Below, piece by piece: positions 4,734-61,947 of a DNA stretch of 64,000 bases. The DNA is from Eucommia ulmoides (Eukaryota > Streptophyta > Magnoliopsida > Garryales > Eucommiaceae): positions 6,023,726-6,087,725 of the forward strand of contig CM028327.1 in assembly GCA_016647705.1 (NCBI GenBank). The letters are read 5' to 3'. Below the pieces are notes generated by a model that had not been told where the DNA came from, ran no database searches, and was given only the letters and a program-made list of their open reading frames with translations. Every line of letters starts with the position of its first letter. Within the stretch, counting starts at the first letter, position 1. The translations under genes and the position numbers were made by a program.

Positions 4734-5678
4734 TAAGAGCATATTTGATAACCACATAATTTTTAAGTGTTGAAACTTTAAGTGCTTAATTTTAAGTATT
4801 GAAAATATCATAAGGTTTTGATAAAATTAAATTTTAAGTTCTAAAAATTTAAGTATTAATTTTTTTTTGTTTGATATGTACGAAATTTGGATGCTAAAAA
4901 ATGTTTAATTTATATAACTATTATTGAATTAAAAGAATTTTATTTTGTGTTATGTTTTATATTTTTTGGTTTTGTTTTGTATTTTTTCTATTTTATTTTT
5001 ATTTTTTGAATTTTTATTGTTTTGGTTTTAATTTACTATTTTGTCTTTTGTTTATTATTTTATTGCTTGTGATTTCTTTTCTTTTTTTTTTTCTTATTAT
5101 TTTATGTTTCCTATGTTTTTTCTTTTCTTTTATATATATATTTTTTAATTTTTGGGTTCTAATTTTATTTTATTTTATTGTTTCATTTTTTATTCTTTAT
5201 TTTTCTTTCTTATTTTTTACCTTCTAATTGTGCTTTTAATTTATTTTCTTTTTTATATTTTTTATTATTATTTTTTCTTTCTATTTTTGCTTCTTTTAAT
5301 CAAAATAGAAAAATAAAATATTTAAAAATAATGAAAAATAAACAAAGTGAAAAAAATCAATCTGAATATGAAAATTTTAAAATTTAATATTGGAAAAAAA
5401 TAAAAACTAAAGAAAACTAAAAGATAAAAAAATAAAGCTAAGAAAATAATATTTTATAATATTGATCTTAATAAAAATAAATTCATAAAAAAAAAAAAAT
5501 AACATTAGTTCAATTGACTAAAAAAATCTAACAACAATTTTAACATTCCTATTAATAAATAAAAAGGGATCTCCAAACTACCTAAATAATGGATCATCGC
5601 AAAGCCCAGAGCTTCATTGAAATGCGCCCATAAAATTAAGTGAAAGGTGCTTTGTTGAATTTTTTACTTAAATTTGAC
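4734..5678. repeat. Decayed Tourist-like end plus T-rich/A-rich asymmetric block
   Basis: TTA then AGAGCATATTTGATAACC at the left edge resembles a Tourist-like terminal repeat, followed by AAGTGCTTAATTTTAAG motifs. From about 4935 to 5300 the plus strand is overwhelmingly T. From about 5300 to 5480 it switches to overwhelmingly A, which would allow a weak foldback. No convincing right terminus is visible. The open frames of 69 and 91 codons here are Phe/Leu-rich artefacts of the T tract. Confidence 0.4.
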
Positions 5679-5681
5679 TTA

Positions 5682-7053
5682 AGACATGTTTGATAATCCA
5701 ATTAAGTGTTTAAAACTAATTATATTAAGTACTTAAATTAATTAAATTTATTTTATAAATATAATTAGTATCACTTAATTAATTAAGTTGACTTAAAATT
5801 TTGGGCAAAACTTCATTTAAAATTTCAACCAAAGACCCCTTTACTTATTTCATTTTGCTGAATAAGGTTAGTTTTTTTCCTCTTAAAAAACATTGTGTTC
5901 AAACCATTTTGCCCTTGAATTTTTTGGATTTCTCGTTTGAGCATCTCTCAATTCTCTATTCAACGAAGAGAAAAGAGAGAAACGAGAAGGGAAGAGCGCG
6001 GCTGTGTTTGAGAGAGAAATGAGACTGGTTCGTGGCGGTGTGTGCTGGTTCAAGGTGAGGCGATTTGCTTTTGCAATTTGTACGCTTCAATTTTTTTCGG
6101 TTGTTAACTGAACTCTCGATTTGTGCGGTATTTGCTTCTTCAACTCTTGATTTTTCGTTTCTTTCGTTCTTCTGAAAATCTAAAGTATCTTCTAAAATCA
6201 AAACTGAACTTGTTGTTGGATTGTTGTTGCTAATCTAAATTGAAGGCATATATTCTAATTTTATTCTAATTTGTTAATTTCACTTCTATTTTTGCTAAAA
6301 CTGAACTTATTCTTGGATTGTTGTTGCTAATTTAGTTCTGAACTTATTCTTAGATTGTTGCTAATTTCGTTTTAAACTGAAGTTCAGTTCAGAACGAAAT
6401 TAGCAACAACAATCTAAGAAGAAATTTAGTTTCAGCAAAAATAGAAGTGAAATTAGCAAATTAGATCAAAATTAGCATATATGACTTCAATTCAAATTAG
6501 CAACAACAATCCAACAAGAAGTTCAATTCAGATTTTTGAAGATACTTCAGATTTTCAGAGGAACGAAAGAAATGAAAAATCGAGAGTTGAAGAAAATACC
6601 GCACAAATCGAGTGTTCAGTTAACAACCGAAAAAAATTGCAGCATACAAATTGCAAATGCGAATCGCTTCGCCTCGCCTCCCCTCGAACCAGCACACAAC
6701 GCCACGAGCCAGTCTCTTTTCTCTCTCACACATAGCAACGCTCTTTCCTTCTCGCTTTTCTCTTTTCTCTTCGTTGAATAGAGAATTGAGAGATGCTCAA
6801 AGGAAAAATCCTAAAAATTCAAGGGCAAAATGGTCTAAACACAATGTTTTTTAAGAGAAAAAAAACATTACCTTATTCAGCAAAATGAAATAAGTAAAAG
6901 GCCTTTGACTGAAATTTTAAAAGAAGTTTTGCCTAAAATTTTAAGTCAACTTAATTAATTAAGTGATACTAATTGTATTTATCAAACAAATTTAATTAAT
7001 TAAATATTTCATATAATCAGTTTTAAGCACTTAATTGGATTATCAAACATTCC
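5682..7053. mobile_element. 1.37 kb hairpin Tourist-like (PIF/Harbinger-type) MITE
   Basis: The two halves are inverted copies of each other from the ends (ACATGTTTGATAATCC left, GGATTATCAAACAT right) to a centre near 6380, giving arms of nearly 700 bases. TTA lies directly outside each end (5679-5681 and 7054-7056), as expected for PIF/Harbinger insertions. Removing the element and one TTA leaves a perfect 26-base palindrome as the target. No transposase is encoded, so it would be non-autonomous. A transcript through it would be double-stranded and could feed small-RNA pathways (inference). Confidence 0.8.
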
Positions 7054-7056
7054 TTA

Positions 7057-8410
7057 AGTCAAATTTAATTAAAAGAAAATATAAATTTCTGCAACGAAAA
7101 CGGAAAAGGAAGAAATAGTAAAAAATAGCAAAATTATCCAATCTCATTTGTGACTGTCGGGTTGGTCAACCTTTCCCCCTTTGAAAATCTTTTAAAATCA
7201 TTCTTAATAATTCTAAATAGTTTTCAATAAAAAACGCAAGATTTTTTTGGCAAAAGAAATGCAATGCTTTTGTTAAATCCTTTGTTTAAATAGCAGCTAA
7301 CACTACAGAAAACATCAACATCGACTCCAGTAAGGAAGGGCTTGACTAAGTAATATATTCTCTATTTCTTTGAATTACTCGATCTTATTGACTATTCAAA
7401 TCACTCTTTTCTTTATTCGTTCGAGAAAGCTCATTCGGGATGCTTTAATCCTTGTGGAAGATCAAGTTGGTGAGCCGTGTTATAGGAAACCTTCCTGTAC
7501 GATTCAGAGAGCACTAAATTCGACTGAGAGGTTCACCACCACATCATTGCATAATCGTGCTCCACTTCGGTGAACTCATGTAGTTTTGACGTGCCCAGAT
7601 GCCAGAGGCGAATCCGTTCACGGTTGAATGATGTCATGGATGATGTCACATGTAATCTCATGGACAAGGTAAGGATTTATATGAGGTAAGGATGATATAA
7701 AGGTGATGGAATAATAATTATACTTGAACTCCACCCTAATGTTAATTAATTTCAATATAATCAATTAAATGTTTATTGAAATGTAATTAAATTATAAAAT
7801 TTTATTTTTTGCATCTAAAATTTTAATGGAACTTTAATGGAACTCCAATAGTTCAATTAACTTTTTATGGGAACAAACTGACTTTTAAAACTTAATTATT
7901 TTTTAATATTGGATTTAATTGAATTATTTACGGAATATATGAACTCAAAAAATTCTAATTTTCAATCTGAAAAGTTGTTTAGAATGATTTATTTCTCTCT
8001 TTTGTTCAAAATTCAAAAATTACTTCTTGAAAAACTGATTTTCAATCAATTTTTTTTTTTCCAAAATCACCAAAAGATTTCTCAATCAAGCACAAGTTCA
8101 AATTTTTTTTTTTTTTTTTTTTTTGGGATGCCATGCAGAAATGGGCAAGTAACAGGACAAAATGCAATTTCTACTTTGACTTTTTGGATAGACGGGGAAC
8201 TAGGGCATGATAATTTCTTTCACCAAATCATTTGAAATCTTTTTACTAATAAATTTTTATTTTTATTTATTGATATTCACCTCTAGAATATATTCTAAAT
8301 TCAAGTCATGTATATTTTTTTTAATTGTAAAATCATTTATTTCAAATCCTTCAATTCAAAGTAAACAATTTTAAATTGATAATATGACATGTCTTGCTTT
8401 CCACCATCAA
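7057..8410. other. Intergenic DNA, nothing recognised
   Basis: The part from 7370 to 7680 is of more balanced composition and might be a remnant of an old unique or repeated sequence, but the 67-codon frame there matches no family I know. The rest is AT-rich with poly-T runs at 8051-8060 and 8107-8124. Confidence 0.45.
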
Positions 8411-8544: not shown

Positions 8545-8926
8545 TGACACAACCCTGCCTATTGTTGAGAGCACAGTCTTTTCATGATCTTATCTCTTTT
8601 TGCTATTTGGTTATGGGTTTGTTATTTTAATTGGTTTGTATTGTTAGTTGTTTGTTACTTTGTTAGTTTGGTTTGTTGGGTTGTTTGGTAGGTGAAGTTA
8701 TATATATAGCTCTTGATTAAAGGAAGGGGGATAAGCAATGAATAGATGTTTTCTCTTCAAATTCTCTTTCTTCTTCTGAATTCTTCTCCATTCCTCCTCT
8801 CTAATTCTCTGTATTTTCCTCTTCTTCTTCTTCTTCTTTAATCTTCTTCTATTTTGGAGCCGGCACTCGCTCGAAGAGTATTTATCAACACTAACCGTGT
8901 TTGTGCAGACGGGTTGGTGTATCATT
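8545..8926 (+). repeat. LTR, inverted extra copy
   Basis: Begins TGACAC and ends GTATCA. It is followed by TTAGTGCTTTCATTGAG, the same primer-site text as follows the 5' LTR of the main unit. It is related to the two minus-strand LTRs over most of its length (for example GTTGAGAGCACAG, GATCTTATCTC, GGAAGGGGGATAAGCAATGAAT) and is longer than both. Confidence 0.8.
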
Positions 8927-8951
8927 AGTGCTTTCATTGAGAATACCAATG

Positions 8952-9259
8952 ACACACCATAGATCAAGAAAAATACTATTCGAGCGAGTGCTAGCTCCAA
9001 ATACTAGAATAAGAATAAGAATTGAGAGAAGAAATCAAAGGAGAAAAAGAATTGGAAGAGAAAATTATATTCATTGCTTATCCCCCTTCCTTTAATCAAG
9101 AACTACATATATAGCTTCACCTACCAAACAACCCATTAAACCAAAGTAACAAACAACTAACAATGCAAACCAATTAAAATAACAAACCCACAACCAGATA
9201 ACAACAAGAGATAAGACCATGAAAATGTTGTGCTCTCAACAATGGGCATGGTCGTATCA
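8952..9259 (-). repeat. 3' LTR of the formin-carrying element
   Basis: Read on the minus strand it begins TGATACGACC directly after a purine tract (GGGGGAA, 9260-9266) and ends GTGTGTCA. It matches 10539-10831 closely, with a block of about 25 bases present here and absent there. Confidence 0.8.
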
Positions 9260-9468
9260 TTCCCCCAGTCTTGAAATACCACCTTGTCCTCAAGGTGTAG
9301 ATCGGGGTAGGCCCAACACAGAAAAAAGACCTAAGATTTAGGTGTCTTTTGGGTAAAAACTTGTGACAATGCACGCGATAATGGTAAGCCCGTGATAAAA
9401 TCCATGGTGATCCCCAAAACCTTCAATTTCTTAACACGTTCAACGTCAAGAAAACAAGATTGTGGAAA

Positions 9469-10515
9469 TCAGAAATAGCATAAGAACTTGTTTGTGTGCA
9501 TGTGATTCATCCTCGAATCAGCAAACTCTTCAAATGAATCAACAACCTGTCTTCCCAGGTATTTGTTTATGTGATCAATGTCTAAAACCCCACTGAATTC
9601 AGAGTCAACTTTGGAGCTTAGAATAATGAAAACATGGCTAAGAACAGCTGCGAAGAACATGTGTCTCTCTAAGCAAATCAAGTGGGTCGACATTTGCCCT
9701 GAAGTGCAAATTGCAAACAAGTACTTGTGTGATCTTGATTTCCACTTAATTGTTCTTCTCTCCGATGAGATCTTATCAACTTTCCGGCACCTATACAAGC
9801 TATTGAAATCAACAACATACGGATCTGAAGTATTATCAGCTAAATCTAACAAATTACCAGATCCATGGGAAGACAACAGAGCTTGAGGAGAATTGATTTT
9901 CGGATTAATTCGACTCAACATTCCGAGAATAAAACAAGTGGGTTTCCCATTAGTGCCCTTCACGTCCACAAGCTTCAGCAGTGTGTCGAGCTTGAATGCA
10001 TGGGCGACACCATGGTTCGTTCCAACATTCATGCGATTCCCCGTTTTGACCATTGTTTCGAGAAGTTGCAGGAACATTCTGCTATTTTTCAGCTCTCTAC
10101 AGGTAGTTATGGCAGTCACAAAATCTACCTGGTCTAGAACATAGCTTTGTTTCGGCATTTCATCGAACAGTTGAGGTACACAAACCGAAACTACCCCTTC
10201 AGTTATTACACACTCAACATGAACAACTTCTTCAACGAGTTCTTCATAATCTGACCCTTCTTGAGCAGCCGTGACTTTGTTATTCAAGTCTTCAAAAGCC
10301 GGTTGAACATCTGCTACTGTAGTCATCTCGGTAAATTTGGAGAGGTTACCTTGATAGTTGGCAACTCCAAACAAAGGGCCTTGCAATCTATGGATCTGAA
10401 TTTGGGATCTTAAAATCTTGGTCTGAGCCTGGATATGAGCTTGGATAGCAATGGTCCGATCCTCGAATTGAACCTGGATTGATTTCAGAATCGCGAGCAC
10501 CTCGGATTGCGCCAT
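9469..10515 (-). CDS. Chimeric retroelement ORF: gag-like N-terminus plus captured formin FH2 fragment
   Basis: A 348-codon open frame whose ATG lies 24 bases after the 5' LTR, where a gag start would be. Residues 1-50 ([17 protein letters not shown], then Gln-rich helix) look like the coiled start of a Ty3/gypsy gag. Residues about 132-193 are unmistakably formin FH2: [26 protein letters not shown] and [18 protein letters not shown]. In plant formins this part of FH2 helps build the actin-nucleating dimer; a fragment of about 62 residues cannot nucleate actin by itself. Residues 50-130 and 200-348 match nothing I recognise. The likeliest origin is capture of host mRNA by the retroelement. 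Whether it is expressed is unknown; it may simply be a recent enough fossil that the frame stays open. Confidence 0.7.
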
Positions 10516-10538: not shown

Positions 10539-10831
10539 TGATACACCCTAGATCAAGAAAAACACTCTTCGAGCGAGTGTCAGCTCCTAATACAAGAATA
10601 AGAATAAGAATTGAGAGAAGAAATCAAAGGAAAAGAATAATTGGAACAGAAAATTCTATTCATTGCTTATCCCCCTTCCTTCACCTATCAAACAACCCAA
10701 CAAACCAAACTAACATAGTAACAAACAACTAACAATACAAATCAATTAAAATAACAAACCCATAACCAAATAGCAACAAGAGATAAGACCATGAAAAGGC
10801 TGTACTCTCAACAATAGGCATGGTCGTATCA
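10539..10831 (-). repeat. 5' LTR of the formin-carrying element
   Basis: On the minus strand it begins TGATACGACCATGCC and ends GTGTATCA, so the tips form a TGATAC/GTATCA inverted pair. The primer-binding text TTGGTGCTTTCATT follows immediately. Its outer flank, TATAG, matches TATAA on the far side of the composite at four of five bases. Confidence 0.8.
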
Positions 10832-44997: not shown

Positions 44998-45137
44998 CCC
45001 CTTCCTCCCTTCACTTATCCCTTATGATCAACGCTCCTCTCTCTCCTCCACCTCTCTCTCTCTCTACTCTCTCTCCTCATAATCCATAACTCACTTACAG
45101 ATCATCTGTTCTTCCCAATTCAAATCAAATCAAACCC

Positions 45138-46142
45138 ATGTCGACGATCGTCTGTCAAAATCGACAGTCGTATTTAGAGCCACCGCAGATTCTTGAAACC
45201 ACCACCACCCTGATGCTCAAATTTTCTGCACCCAAATCCATAGAGTTTTGCAGAGGGCCCTTCGTCTTGGACTCCGAACCCATAGAAATTGCAGAGAAAT
45301 GCCACCTCGAGAAGAAGAAATTGCCCACCAATCTCGATCAATTGGGCGGTGGATGGACCTTTCTCCAATCTCTCTCCTCAATTTCGCAGAACCCCAATGA
45401 ATCGATCGAAAAACAGAGTCCTTATGTTCACCCGTCGGCGAAGCGATCTTCGTCTTCGAAGCTCAGCGATAAGAGCTTGGAGTTGTGTACGGAGAATCTG
45501 GGTAACGAGACGGGTACGGATATAATGGAAAGCAGCATTTGGTTCTCGGATTCGTCTTCGTCTTCGTCGTCTTCTTCTTCTTCTTCGGCAGAATCGAGGA
45601 TTGGAAACTCGCCGCCGAAGAAACAGAGGAGCTCTTCTTGTAAGGTGAGCAGCTTTCCGCCGCCTCTGACGACGATAAGGGGATCGAGTTCTATTCAGGT
45701 CAGGCGTCACCGCGAAGGCGGAAGATTGATAATCGAGGCGGTCGAAGCACCTTCTTCTACCGCGTATCTTCACGCGGAGCGGAGCGACGGCCGTCTCCGG
45801 CTTTGTCTCATGAAGGGCGCTGCCGCGGCCACCCCCCCTGTTCTTGACGAGGAACAGAGCACGTCGGAGACTGCGGAAGAGTATGAAAACGACGCCGGTG
45901 ATGAAGATAATCTAGATGATGATGAAGATGAATACGGAGAGGAGGAGGAGGAGGAAGAAGAAGAAGAAGATGAAGAGGAGGAAAATGGCGGTTACAGAGG
46001 AAGTGACATGGATGGAAATAGTGGAGATGTTGAGGTTGAAATGGGAATTGAGAAATTTCAAAGGCCAAGCACGTGCAAGGAACGTGGGAGAGGGAGCAAA
46101 GGCTTATGCAACTGGGAGCCTTTGTGTGTGGCTACTTCATGA
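45138..46142 (+). CDS. FAF-like: FANTASTIC FOUR (FAF)-like protein
   Basis: A 334-residue intronless frame, as usual for the family. The N-terminus MSTIVCQNRQSYLEP has the conserved FAF start, followed by a GGWTFLQSLS block (about 71-80) and ENLGNETGTDI (about 120-129). A poly-Ser tract (about 138-151) follows. The FAF domain lies at about 172-226: SFPPPLTT at its start, RRHREGGRLIIEA in the middle and ERSDGRLRLCL at its end. An acidic run of Glu/Asp covers about 249-284. FAF proteins are plant-specific; in Arabidopsis they limit shoot meristem size and dampen the WUSCHEL-CLAVATA circuit (established for that species, not shown here). The first ATG after the CT-rich leader is used as start. 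The Ser and Glu tracts are encoded by TCG/TCT and GAG/GAA trinucleotide runs and may vary between individuals. This is the only convincing host gene in the window. Confidence 0.93.
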   Translation: MSTIVCQNRQSYLEPPQILETTTTLMLKFSAPKSIEFCRGPFVLDSEPIEIAEKCHLEKKKLPTNLDQLGGGWTFLQSLSSISQNPNESIEKQSPYVHPSAKRSSSSKLSDKSLELCTENLGNETGTDIMESSIWFSDSSSSSSSSSSSSAESRIGNSPPKKQRSSSCKVSSFPPPLTTIRGSSSIQVRRHREGGRLIIEAVEAPSSTAYLHAERSDGRLRLCLMKGAAAATPPVLDEEQSTSETAEEYENDAGDEDNLDDDEDEYGEEEEEEEEEEDEEEENGGYRGSDMDGNSGDVEVEMGIEKFQRPSTCKERGRGSKGLCNWEPLCVATS

Positions 46143-59391: not shown

Positions 59392-61947
59392 TTACTGTCT
59401 TCTATATAAATGATCAAATTCTATTTTTGTATTAAATTGAGGAAAAAAAAGGGGGTTACTGAAACTGGACAGTTTTATGATGCTAAATGGATCATAGCCC
59501 TTGATCAATTCCATCCAATGTCTCTGCCTCAGATTTAGTTCCTTCTGAGTAAACACGTATTTCAAACTCTGGTGGTCGGTGTATATTTCATAAGTCTCAC
59601 TATACAGGTAATGCCTCCAAATCTTCAAGGCAAACACAAATGCCGCCAACTCCAAATCATGCGTTGGGTAATTACGTTCATGATTCTTTAATTGTCGGGA
59701 GGCATATGCAATCACGTGACCATGTTGCATCAGCACACACCCTAACCCTTGGTGTAACGCATCATTATAGATCACAAAGCCACCGCCTTTTGTCGGAAGG
59801 GAAAGTATTGACGCAGATATCAGTCTACTCTTCAGCTCTTGGAAACTCTGCTCACATTGGTCAGTCTACTCGAATTTGGATTCTTTGCGGGTTAATCGGG
59901 TAAATGGGGCAGCTATAACAGAAAATCCCTGCACAAACCAATGATAATAACCCGCCAATCCCAAAAAATTTCGAACTTCGATCACACTTTTCGGTCTTTC
60001 CCATTGGACAACAGCTTCGACTTTCTTTGGGTCAGCTTGAATACGCTCTCCCGAGATAACATGCCCAAAGAACACAACTCTATCCAACCAAAATTCACAT
60101 TTACTGAATTTCACATACAATTGTTTCTCTCTCAAAGTTTGCAACACAGTTTTGAGATGCTCTGCATATTCTTCTTTATTTTGGGAATAGATCAATATAT
60201 CATCAATGAACACGATAATAAACTGATCTAGATAGGAAATTTGCAATGGCCGTACCTCGAACGAAACGCCGTCTTCGCCACATCACTGTCTCTGACTTTC
60301 AACTGATAATATCCCTATCGAAGATCTATTTTGGAAAATACCTTGGCCATCTGCAATTGGTCGAACAGATTAGCAATTCGGATATTTATTATGAATCGTC
60401 ACCTTATTCAACTGTTTGTAATCGATGTACATCCTCAACGTACCATTCTTCTTCTTACGAATAACACTGGGGCTTTCCACGGAGAAACACCAGGTCTGAT
60501 AAACCCGCGGTCTAACAGATCTTGCAACTGAATCTTCAATTCCTTTAACTCAGTAGGCGCCATACAATAGGGTGGAATTGATATAGAAGAAGTTCCTGAA
60601 GGTAACTTGATAATGACTTCAATTTTTCTATCCACTGGCAACTTTGACAATTCTTTTAAAAACACATCGGGAAAATCCCTAATTATTGGAATATCCGCCA
60701 CCTGAACTTCATTCTGACTGGTGTCGATCACATGCGCGAGGCATCCCTGACATCTTTTCTTTAATAACTTCTTGGCCTCCAGGACTGAAATAAAACAGAT
60801 TGGGGTAATGATTCTGTCCCCCGAAAATACAAACTCTGACTTGTCTGAGACCCAAAAAGTAACTTCTTTTTTAAAACAATCCACGTAGCATGGTAGTCAG
60901 ATAGAAAATTAATACCCAGTATCACATCAAAATCGTGAATACCCAGGGGTAAGAGATCCACCGACAATTCTCTATTACCAATCCAAAGTAGACTGTCTTT
61001 ATACACACTAACTATCAACACGGACTCACAGTTCTCGGCTGGTTCCCGCACATCATTCTCTATTAATTTTGTTGTGTTTACTAATTCCACATAACTTTTG
61101 ATCTGCCTGCCCGTCAACCTGGAATGTATTTCTAAATCAAATCCTTTCTGGAATCATCTACATCTTGTCTCTTCCATTTTTACCCAATCAGGAGCAAATC
61201 GGGACAGGACATTGAACGGTCATCTTTTCTTGTTTTCAATAATATAAACTCCCCCTCCAATAAAATTGCAAGGTCTCCTTAGTATTGCCTAGAAGACAGT
61301 TTTATGCACACTTTTGGATGTTGTATGCTAGGATAGAGTCCATGAATATCAAATAGTAGCGCAATGTGTTGTGTAGTCCCATAATACCAGTAAGGTGTTG
61401 TCTAATAATCCAATTAATAACTTAGCATTGGGCGAATCAAGTGTGCTCTATCACACTATTAGTTTAACAACTAAAATATTAAGTACTACCTACAGTGAAT
61501 CCAAATGTCAAGTAACACGAATATGATTTACTTATCAGTTATAACTTAGCATTTAAAACCACTAGCACCCCCACAATCATAATCCATCCATCACCACTAC
61601 CAACAATACCACCTAATCCACCAACTAGCAGTATCGCAATTTCATCGCACCACTAATCGTCAACTTTATAGTTATTCCTGTTAACGGAAAACGAGACTAG
61701 AAAAATAATGCAACAACTTTAACCAGTGGTCAGACTCTCCTATTTATTTATTACTAATTTACTATATATTAAGAGAGGGCCAACAAGACAAATAACAATG
61801 CACGATGCCAATGTACTATCTAATGCAATACAATAACTATCACTCACGTGCCGAACCCACCTATCAACATCCTATCTCATGGTCCACTACTGGCTAGACA
61901 ATCAGACACGTCTACAGAACCTATAAGTTAAGCTCTAATACTAAAAA
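59392..61947 (-). mobile_element. Ty3/gypsy pol fossil, chromovirus-like
   Basis: In minus-strand order: a primer-site-like TAGTATTAGAGC next to the LTR end (61932-61943), a stretch without a recognisable gag, then the C-terminal part of an aspartic protease (VILGINFLSDYHAT). Next come the linker into reverse transcriptase (IKLPSGTSSISIPPYCMAP), the RT core with FIDDILIYS and FGHVIS, the tether [12 protein letters not shown], and RNase H ([11 protein letters not shown]). Integrase and the 3' LTR are not seen. The copy is broken, with at least four interruptions or losses, and looks old. Plus-strand frames across it are shadows. Confidence 0.88.

Follow-up and report, generated by a model that had tools for sequence, protein, structure and literature searches.

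Pieces of at least four host genes, including a formin, in one frame between the LTRs of a putative Ty3/gypsy-type element

How did a piece of a formin gene come to lie in a long open frame between two LTRs, and what else does that frame contain? A first-pass annotation of the window (the whole stretch of 64,000 nucleotides that was analysed) had proposed that a Ty3/gypsy-type element captured the fragment. With a probability of roughly 85%, we read the locus as a non-autonomous Ty3/gypsy-type LTR element whose interior consists of host mRNA pieces joined by template switching. The features are as follows.

10539..10831, minus strand: 5' LTR, 293 bp, TGATACGACC...GTGTATCA, K2P 0.092 to the 3' LTR
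9469..10515, minus strand: open chimeric frame, 348 codons and stop, from ORF and shuffle analysis
10255..10515, minus strand: gag-start module, residues 1 to about 87, with at least 16 genome matches to residues 1-61
10195..10254, minus strand: stretch of residues about 88-107, common to L010, L011, L012, L047, and partly L049
10108..10194, minus strand: PPR piece, residues about 108-136, 70% identity to L050 and L051
9937..10106, minus strand: formin FH2 piece, 89.4% over 170 bp to the donor L017/L056
9878..9949, minus strand: DEAD-box helicase piece, 72 bp, 64/72 identities to L063
9405..9885, minus strand: O-fucosyltransferase (O-FucT) piece, 481 bp, 90.9% over 481 bp to L009
9269..9404, minus strand: pol-end module, DFITGLP... 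to ...HLEDKVVFQ, in frame with the cargo at its start; its motif is one that we take to be gypsy-type
9260..9268, minus strand: polypurine tract, from the sequence preceding the 3' LTR
8950..9259, minus strand: 3' LTR, 310 bp, from the LTR alignment
8545..8924, plus strand: third LTR, of a different subtype and in opposite orientation, K2P 0.153-0.163 to the other two LTRs

The open frame and its host gene pieces

The 348-codon frame lies on the minus strand, with its ATG at 10515 and its stop at 9471-9469. A plus-strand reading of 9469-10515 was rejected because of the many stops there. Counting from the LTR, the ATG starts at base 24, where the first-pass annotation had placed the start. Counted from stop to stop, the frame has 384 codons, and it is the longest such frame in the window among the listed frames of at least 100 aa. 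None of 2000 dinucleotide shuffles of the internal region reached 348 codons (maximum 221). The description of a frame open over more than 1 kb holds. The order read in this one frame is gag start, PPR, formin FH2, DEAD-box helicase, O-fucosyltransferase, and gypsy pol end; the polypurine tract and then the 3' LTR come past these modules. The stop at 9471-9469 interrupts the O-FucT piece, past which the same frame runs on through that piece into the gypsy-like pol end. The chimera is thus composed of pieces of at least four host genes in one frame.

The LTRs at 10539-10831 and 8950-9259 form a direct pair with TG...CA ends. The sequence TTGGTGCTTTCATT comes right after the 5' LTR, at the candidate tRNA primer-binding site, and the polypurine tract TTCAAGACTGGGGGAA abuts the 3' LTR. 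The assignment to an LTR element is borne out, as the LTR pair and the polypurine tract bound the cargo. The gag-like start also stands, and corresponds to the gag-start module; its residues 58-87 have weak similarity to the gag frame of L049, which itself matches Ty3_capsid at 5.9e-4, under the Pfam cut-off. FH2 is the sole Pfam family above cut-off between the LTRs (interior of 1.28 kb): no gypsy gag or pol family reached the Pfam cut-off in the window copy, and the Pfam search for reverse transcriptase and integrase found neither encoded in the element. At L060, the Pfam integrase core was matched at 0.019, under cut-off.

The inverted outer LTRs were rejected as a pair, since K2P between the two minus-strand LTRs is 0.092, versus 0.153-0.163 to the third. 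The third LTR stands head to head with the 3' LTR across a gap of 25 bp, and this spacer opens with sequence resembling that after the 5' LTR. Beyond the three LTRs, the flanking bases are TATAA and TATAG, with no clean TSD. The three-LTR composite may have been inserted or rearranged as a single unit.

The profile search confirmed the FH2 fragment. The Pfam FH2 match covers residues 132-193 (E 2.3e-19; 70.2 bits, cut-off 34.8), and spans positions 183-244 of the 372-position profile. The FH2 domain is incomplete, and formin activity of the window frame is very unlikely. The figure of about 62 formin residues given earlier agrees with the Pfam match, but DNA homology to the donor covers just residues about 137-193; the last 15 or so bases overlap the helicase match. 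Donor and copy searches covered the window's genome (946.7 Mb, 391 contigs), in which an FH2 search gave 40 matches, exons being counted separately. The donor formin, supposed from the outset to lie in this genome, was found at G000:C3:46117.5 kb (C3:46117546), on the window's own contig about 40 Mb away; the next-best formin locus, among those fetched, has 80% identity over 133 bp. We interpret the short formin matches at L037, L039, and L042 as exons from other formin genes. The formin piece begins at a donor exon start, and ends within that exon.

The FH2 match itself would also be expected if the frame belonged to a formin gene that is intact or was recently disrupted. However, only 62/372 FH2 positions are present, with gag, PPR, helicase, and O-FucT pieces around them, all between LTRs, and the order formin-helicase-O-FucT recurs in loci on C8, C11, and C17. 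A formin gene at this place is hardly conceivable; the match lies between the LTRs and outside any intact host gene, as had been supposed.

The capture of a formin piece is real, but as an account of the locus it was incomplete, the helicase, O-fucosyltransferase, and PPR pieces having been left unnamed. Residues about 88-107 matched no Pfam family above cut-off. The donor gene of the PPR piece was not found in the genome; the frames similar to it matched PPR_2 (1.3e-6 in L050, 4.3e-4 in L051) and PPR (6.4e-6 in L050). The sequence following FH2 had been considered as a 'spacer'; this was rejected, as it is the helicase piece. The nearest helicase gene, L063 (G000:C16:2.789 Mb), matches DEAD at 2.2e-14. 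The O-FucT donor L009 (G000:C14:~507 kb) contains introns, and the chimeric frame from residue 211 onwards matches sequence inside its exon 1. The joined exons of L009 matched O-fucosyltransferase PF10250 at 2.4e-7 (31.1 bits, just below the cut-off of 31.5), and one exon alone gave 0.0048; exon 1 had no Pfam match, and the piece alone had none in Pfam, NCBIfam, or PDB. The donors of the window pieces are unlinked: C3 (formin), C14 (O-FucT), and C16 (helicase). Searches of viral contigs, bacterial genome contigs, and plasmids gave nothing informative.

Sister copies, selection, and age

The internal chimera is present at three further loci of the same genome: C17 (L012), C8:26.8 Mb (L011), and C11 (L010). 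The captured chimera is present as first described, but it is not alone: there are three other copies, and also relatives with other host pieces. Interior identity to the window copy is 92.4% for L012, 92.0% for L011, and 89.1% for L010. The LTR pairs of L012 and L011 are each 91.5% identical, and L012 has the TSD GTAAA/GTAAA (by eye); at L010, no LTR pair was found and the gag start is missing. The interior of L011 is 92% like that of the window and its LTR pair is mostly unlike, as if the LTRs had been exchanged. In L010 and L047, the gag-side sequence is fused to another host-like frame (...SVDMEDA..QD..YQ...), not to the gag start.

Over 367 codons of the window's frame, the sister copies contain both stops (five in L012, one each in L011 and L010) and indels (one in L012, five in L011, one in L010). 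The window copy lacks private indels, and its only stop is at codon 349. Judged from its sequence, the window frame might then be an exapted chimeric gene under selection, as proposed for maize Bs1: no stop occurs in 348 codons, and the private changes (19 silent, 15 replacement, 1 stop) depart from those expected (10.6, 22.5, and 1.8; P 0.003). The private changes of the three sister copies look neutral (Fisher, window versus sisters, 0.0015). However, downstream untranslated sites of the window copy (3/142) changed no faster than replacement sites (14/670), while silent sites changed at a high rate (18/185). Since the replacement rate equals the downstream rate and the silent rate is high, the signal is a silent excess, not a clear replacement loss; clear purifying selection, taken up as a candidate explanation, was weakened by this control. 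Moreover, the window frame terminates within its O-FucT piece, at a point that the other copies read through, and some of the private branch may be older than the insertion. Exaptation is thus considered unlikely. The open frame is notable for its length, as the first-pass annotation stated, but doubtful as a sign of function.

Silent sites have diverged from the donors by 0.31 in the formin piece and by 0.19 in the O-FucT piece. Both values exceed the LTR divergence of 0.092, so capture was earlier than the window insertion. At commonly used plant rates, the LTR divergence corresponds to a few million years.

Relatives with other cargo

Relatives of the element have its gag start, its pol end, or both in common, and differ in cargo. 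Their cargo includes FKBP, UCH, spermidine synthase, RabGAP-TBC, peptidase M24, glycosyl hydrolase 9 (GH9), and invertase. Among the best candidates scored, the gag start has at least 16 genome matches and the pol end (L053 query) at least 76, which may include autonomous relatives. Interiors were read at a minority of these gag-start and pol-end places.

L013, L058, and L059 combine a helicase N-terminus with FKBP (3.5e-19 in L058, 6.2e-13 in L059), and L013 also holds the O-FucT tail. We take L065 to be the FKBP gene because its edges resemble splice sites. L053 contains gag-like sequence and 219 bp of exon 1 of the formin donor gene (85.8%), within an LTR pair of 87.5% identity and the TSD TAGAC/TAGAC (by eye). 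L050, which lies within L054, has UCH (1.8e-6), the PPR match given above, and the pol end, all in one frame. L069 and L070 contain spermidine synthase (4.9e-22 in L070) and peptidase M24 (3.9e-20 in L070); L070 additionally matches RabGAP-TBC (7.6e-7), and PPR_2 at 1.2e-4, under cut-off. L052, L071, and L072 were chosen partly for their long frames. A 508-codon frame at L052:7166-8689 contains GH9 (7.8e-86), DEAD (1.2e-11), and the pol end, with ketoacyl synthase (5.5e-4) just short of cut-off. Neutral invertase (1e-15) and PPR (4e-17) were found in L071, and PPR (2.1e-26) in L072. The helicase, O-FucT, and PPR modules recur in elements with different cargo.

Two further observations were made at these loci. 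Copia-like frames lie upstream at the L052 locus, by eye. At L054:8884-9900 (minus strand), a 339-codon frame contains 100 bp of exon 1 of the formin donor (91%), followed by eIF4G- and prolyl oligopeptidase-like sequence (by eye; no Pfam family above cut-off). It lies 3.5 kb from the UCH-PPR frame, and the two perhaps belong to separate elements.

Joins, proposed mechanism, and known systems

The helicase gene has a GT-AG intron that is precisely missing from L013 and L058, and this indicates that the cargo there came from spliced mRNA. The absence of donor introns, which the first-pass annotation had raised, could not be read from the formin piece, as it lies inside one exon; the helicase intron of the relatives does bear on it. 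Since no window piece spans a donor intron, an mRNA origin of the window pieces is inferred from the relatives.

Pack-MULEs and gene-capturing Helitrons carry mosaics of host gene pieces. A DNA transposon of this kind might have carried the pieces here, the LTRs being incidental, and both classes are known for gene-fragment mosaics according to passages of PMC13317346. However, 5-bp TSDs lie at the LTR ends of two relatives (C17 and L053), the polypurine tract and LTR ends bound the cargo, and the helicase cargo is intron-free. These DNA elements thus differ from the present family, which has LTRs, a polypurine tract, 5-bp TSDs, and intron loss, and such an origin is very improbable.

The flanking donors share short identities at the joins: 9 nt at the formin-helicase join (P 0.0003), 8 nt at the helicase-O-FucT join (P 0.0006), and 5 nt at the PPR-formin join (P 0.019, with element L051 used in place of the PPR donor). 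The two joins of L013 have shared runs of 3 nt (P 0.22) and 4 nt (P 0.07). The combined P for these five joins (three window, two L013) is 8e-7, calculated without the PPR-formin row on L050 (1 shared nt; wrong diagonal), and with crossovers picked by best fit, which favours shared bases somewhat, beyond the null model. The O-FucT-to-pol join lies at L009 position 3150 in the window, L011, L012, and L013, and at 3153 in L010; the same donor position indicates that this join is common while the upstream cargo differs.

Two observations stand against template switching: three piece ends coincide with exon edges or fall within about 3 nt of them, a pattern that such a mechanism does not predict, and the two L013 joins share only 3 and 4 nt. 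The joins might instead have been made by splicing, with read-through from elements in host genes and exons spliced before reverse transcription (transduction, exon trapping). This would fit the formin piece, which starts at a donor exon start, and the FKBP piece of L013, whose first base is within about 3 nt of an exon start and whose last coincides with an exon end. It does not fit the formin end, both ends of the helicase piece, and both O-FucT ends, which lie inside exons, and identities as long as 8 and 9 nt, as present at two of the joins, would be unexpected. Splicing as the general explanation is therefore improbable; as a minor route, it is possible.

The preferred reading remains template switching, and repeated capture of host mRNA pieces by the family is the best reading of the relatives. 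Passages of PMC5408686 describe such a mechanism, in which templates are switched at microsimilarities. For the window element, host mRNAs would enter the particle along with the element RNA. The reverse transcriptase would probably be supplied by an autonomous relative (helper), and might jump between templates at short identities. These jumps would leave gag start, PPR, formin, helicase, O-fucosyltransferase, and pol end in one frame, and the finished chimera could then spread as an ordinary element.

In the window, the four host pieces (PPR, formin, helicase, and O-FucT) and the beginning of the pol end share one frame, with a chance of 1/81 if the four joins are independent. In-frame joins were also found in L058, L013, L053, L050, and L052, a biased count as these were read within open frames; further pieces of L053 are in other frames, and pieces of L013 and L069 are in separate frames. 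Tentatively, this plant might have a dedicated gene-shuffling LTR family, with many copies that have their gag-start and pol-end modules in common and an interior that can be exchanged, built up serially from many host mRNAs; it would generate in-frame multi-domain chimeras of which few are selected. RNAs with early stops would perhaps be degraded before packaging, so that in-frame fusions persist, and the window copy is perhaps among the chimeras under selection. That out-of-frame RNAs are filtered out in this way is conjecture.

Maize Bs1, which the first-pass annotation offered as an analogue, is reportedly transcribed and translated; the window frame is known here from sequence alone. The analogy is apt: in the passages available, Bs1 is an LTR retroelement that holds segments from three host genes (PMC13317346), likewise non-autonomous, with several host gene pieces and a hybrid frame with gag remnants. 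The host genes are different, however, and here at least four donors contribute to the window copy and many more across the relatives that share its ends, with helicase, O-FucT, and PPR modules reused beside different cargo. LTR-mediated retroposition, in the available passages of Tan et al. 2016 (PMC5408686), shares the microsimilarity at joins and the intron-free cargo where testable; those retrocopies are mostly metazoan, whereas here several donors occur in one plant element. The LTR-captured genes of rice and sorghum (PMC3726574) are similar in that host genes lie inside plant LTR elements and are copied along; the passages available count annotated genes in full-length elements, and describe no short multi-donor mosaics with shared modules. 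Further background on what is known was drawn from parts of PMC7264820 and PMC8764390.

In the passages and abstracts of the open-access literature searched, no report of formin capture by an LTR element was found, in line with the earlier statement that none was described, nor any analogue closer than the systems cited. Judged from these open-access passages and abstracts, a single family with cargo of such breadth and with modules shared between its members looks new. Plant LTR gene capture, as described in that literature so far, concerns whole genes in elements, or the single case of Bs1. The present family combines several donors per element, named donors, short join identities, intron loss, and reused modules. 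The order of capture, the rule of template switching, and any in-frame bias would be countable in one genome.

Three other features were observed elsewhere in the window. About 1.4 kb at 5662-7074 aligns with its own reverse complement (87%), like a foldback element. Minus-strand frames at 59395-61153 resemble the protease-RT-RNase H of a separate Ty3/gypsy element (by eye). The second longest frame, of 350 codons on the plus strand at 45090-46139, is possibly a host gene exon.
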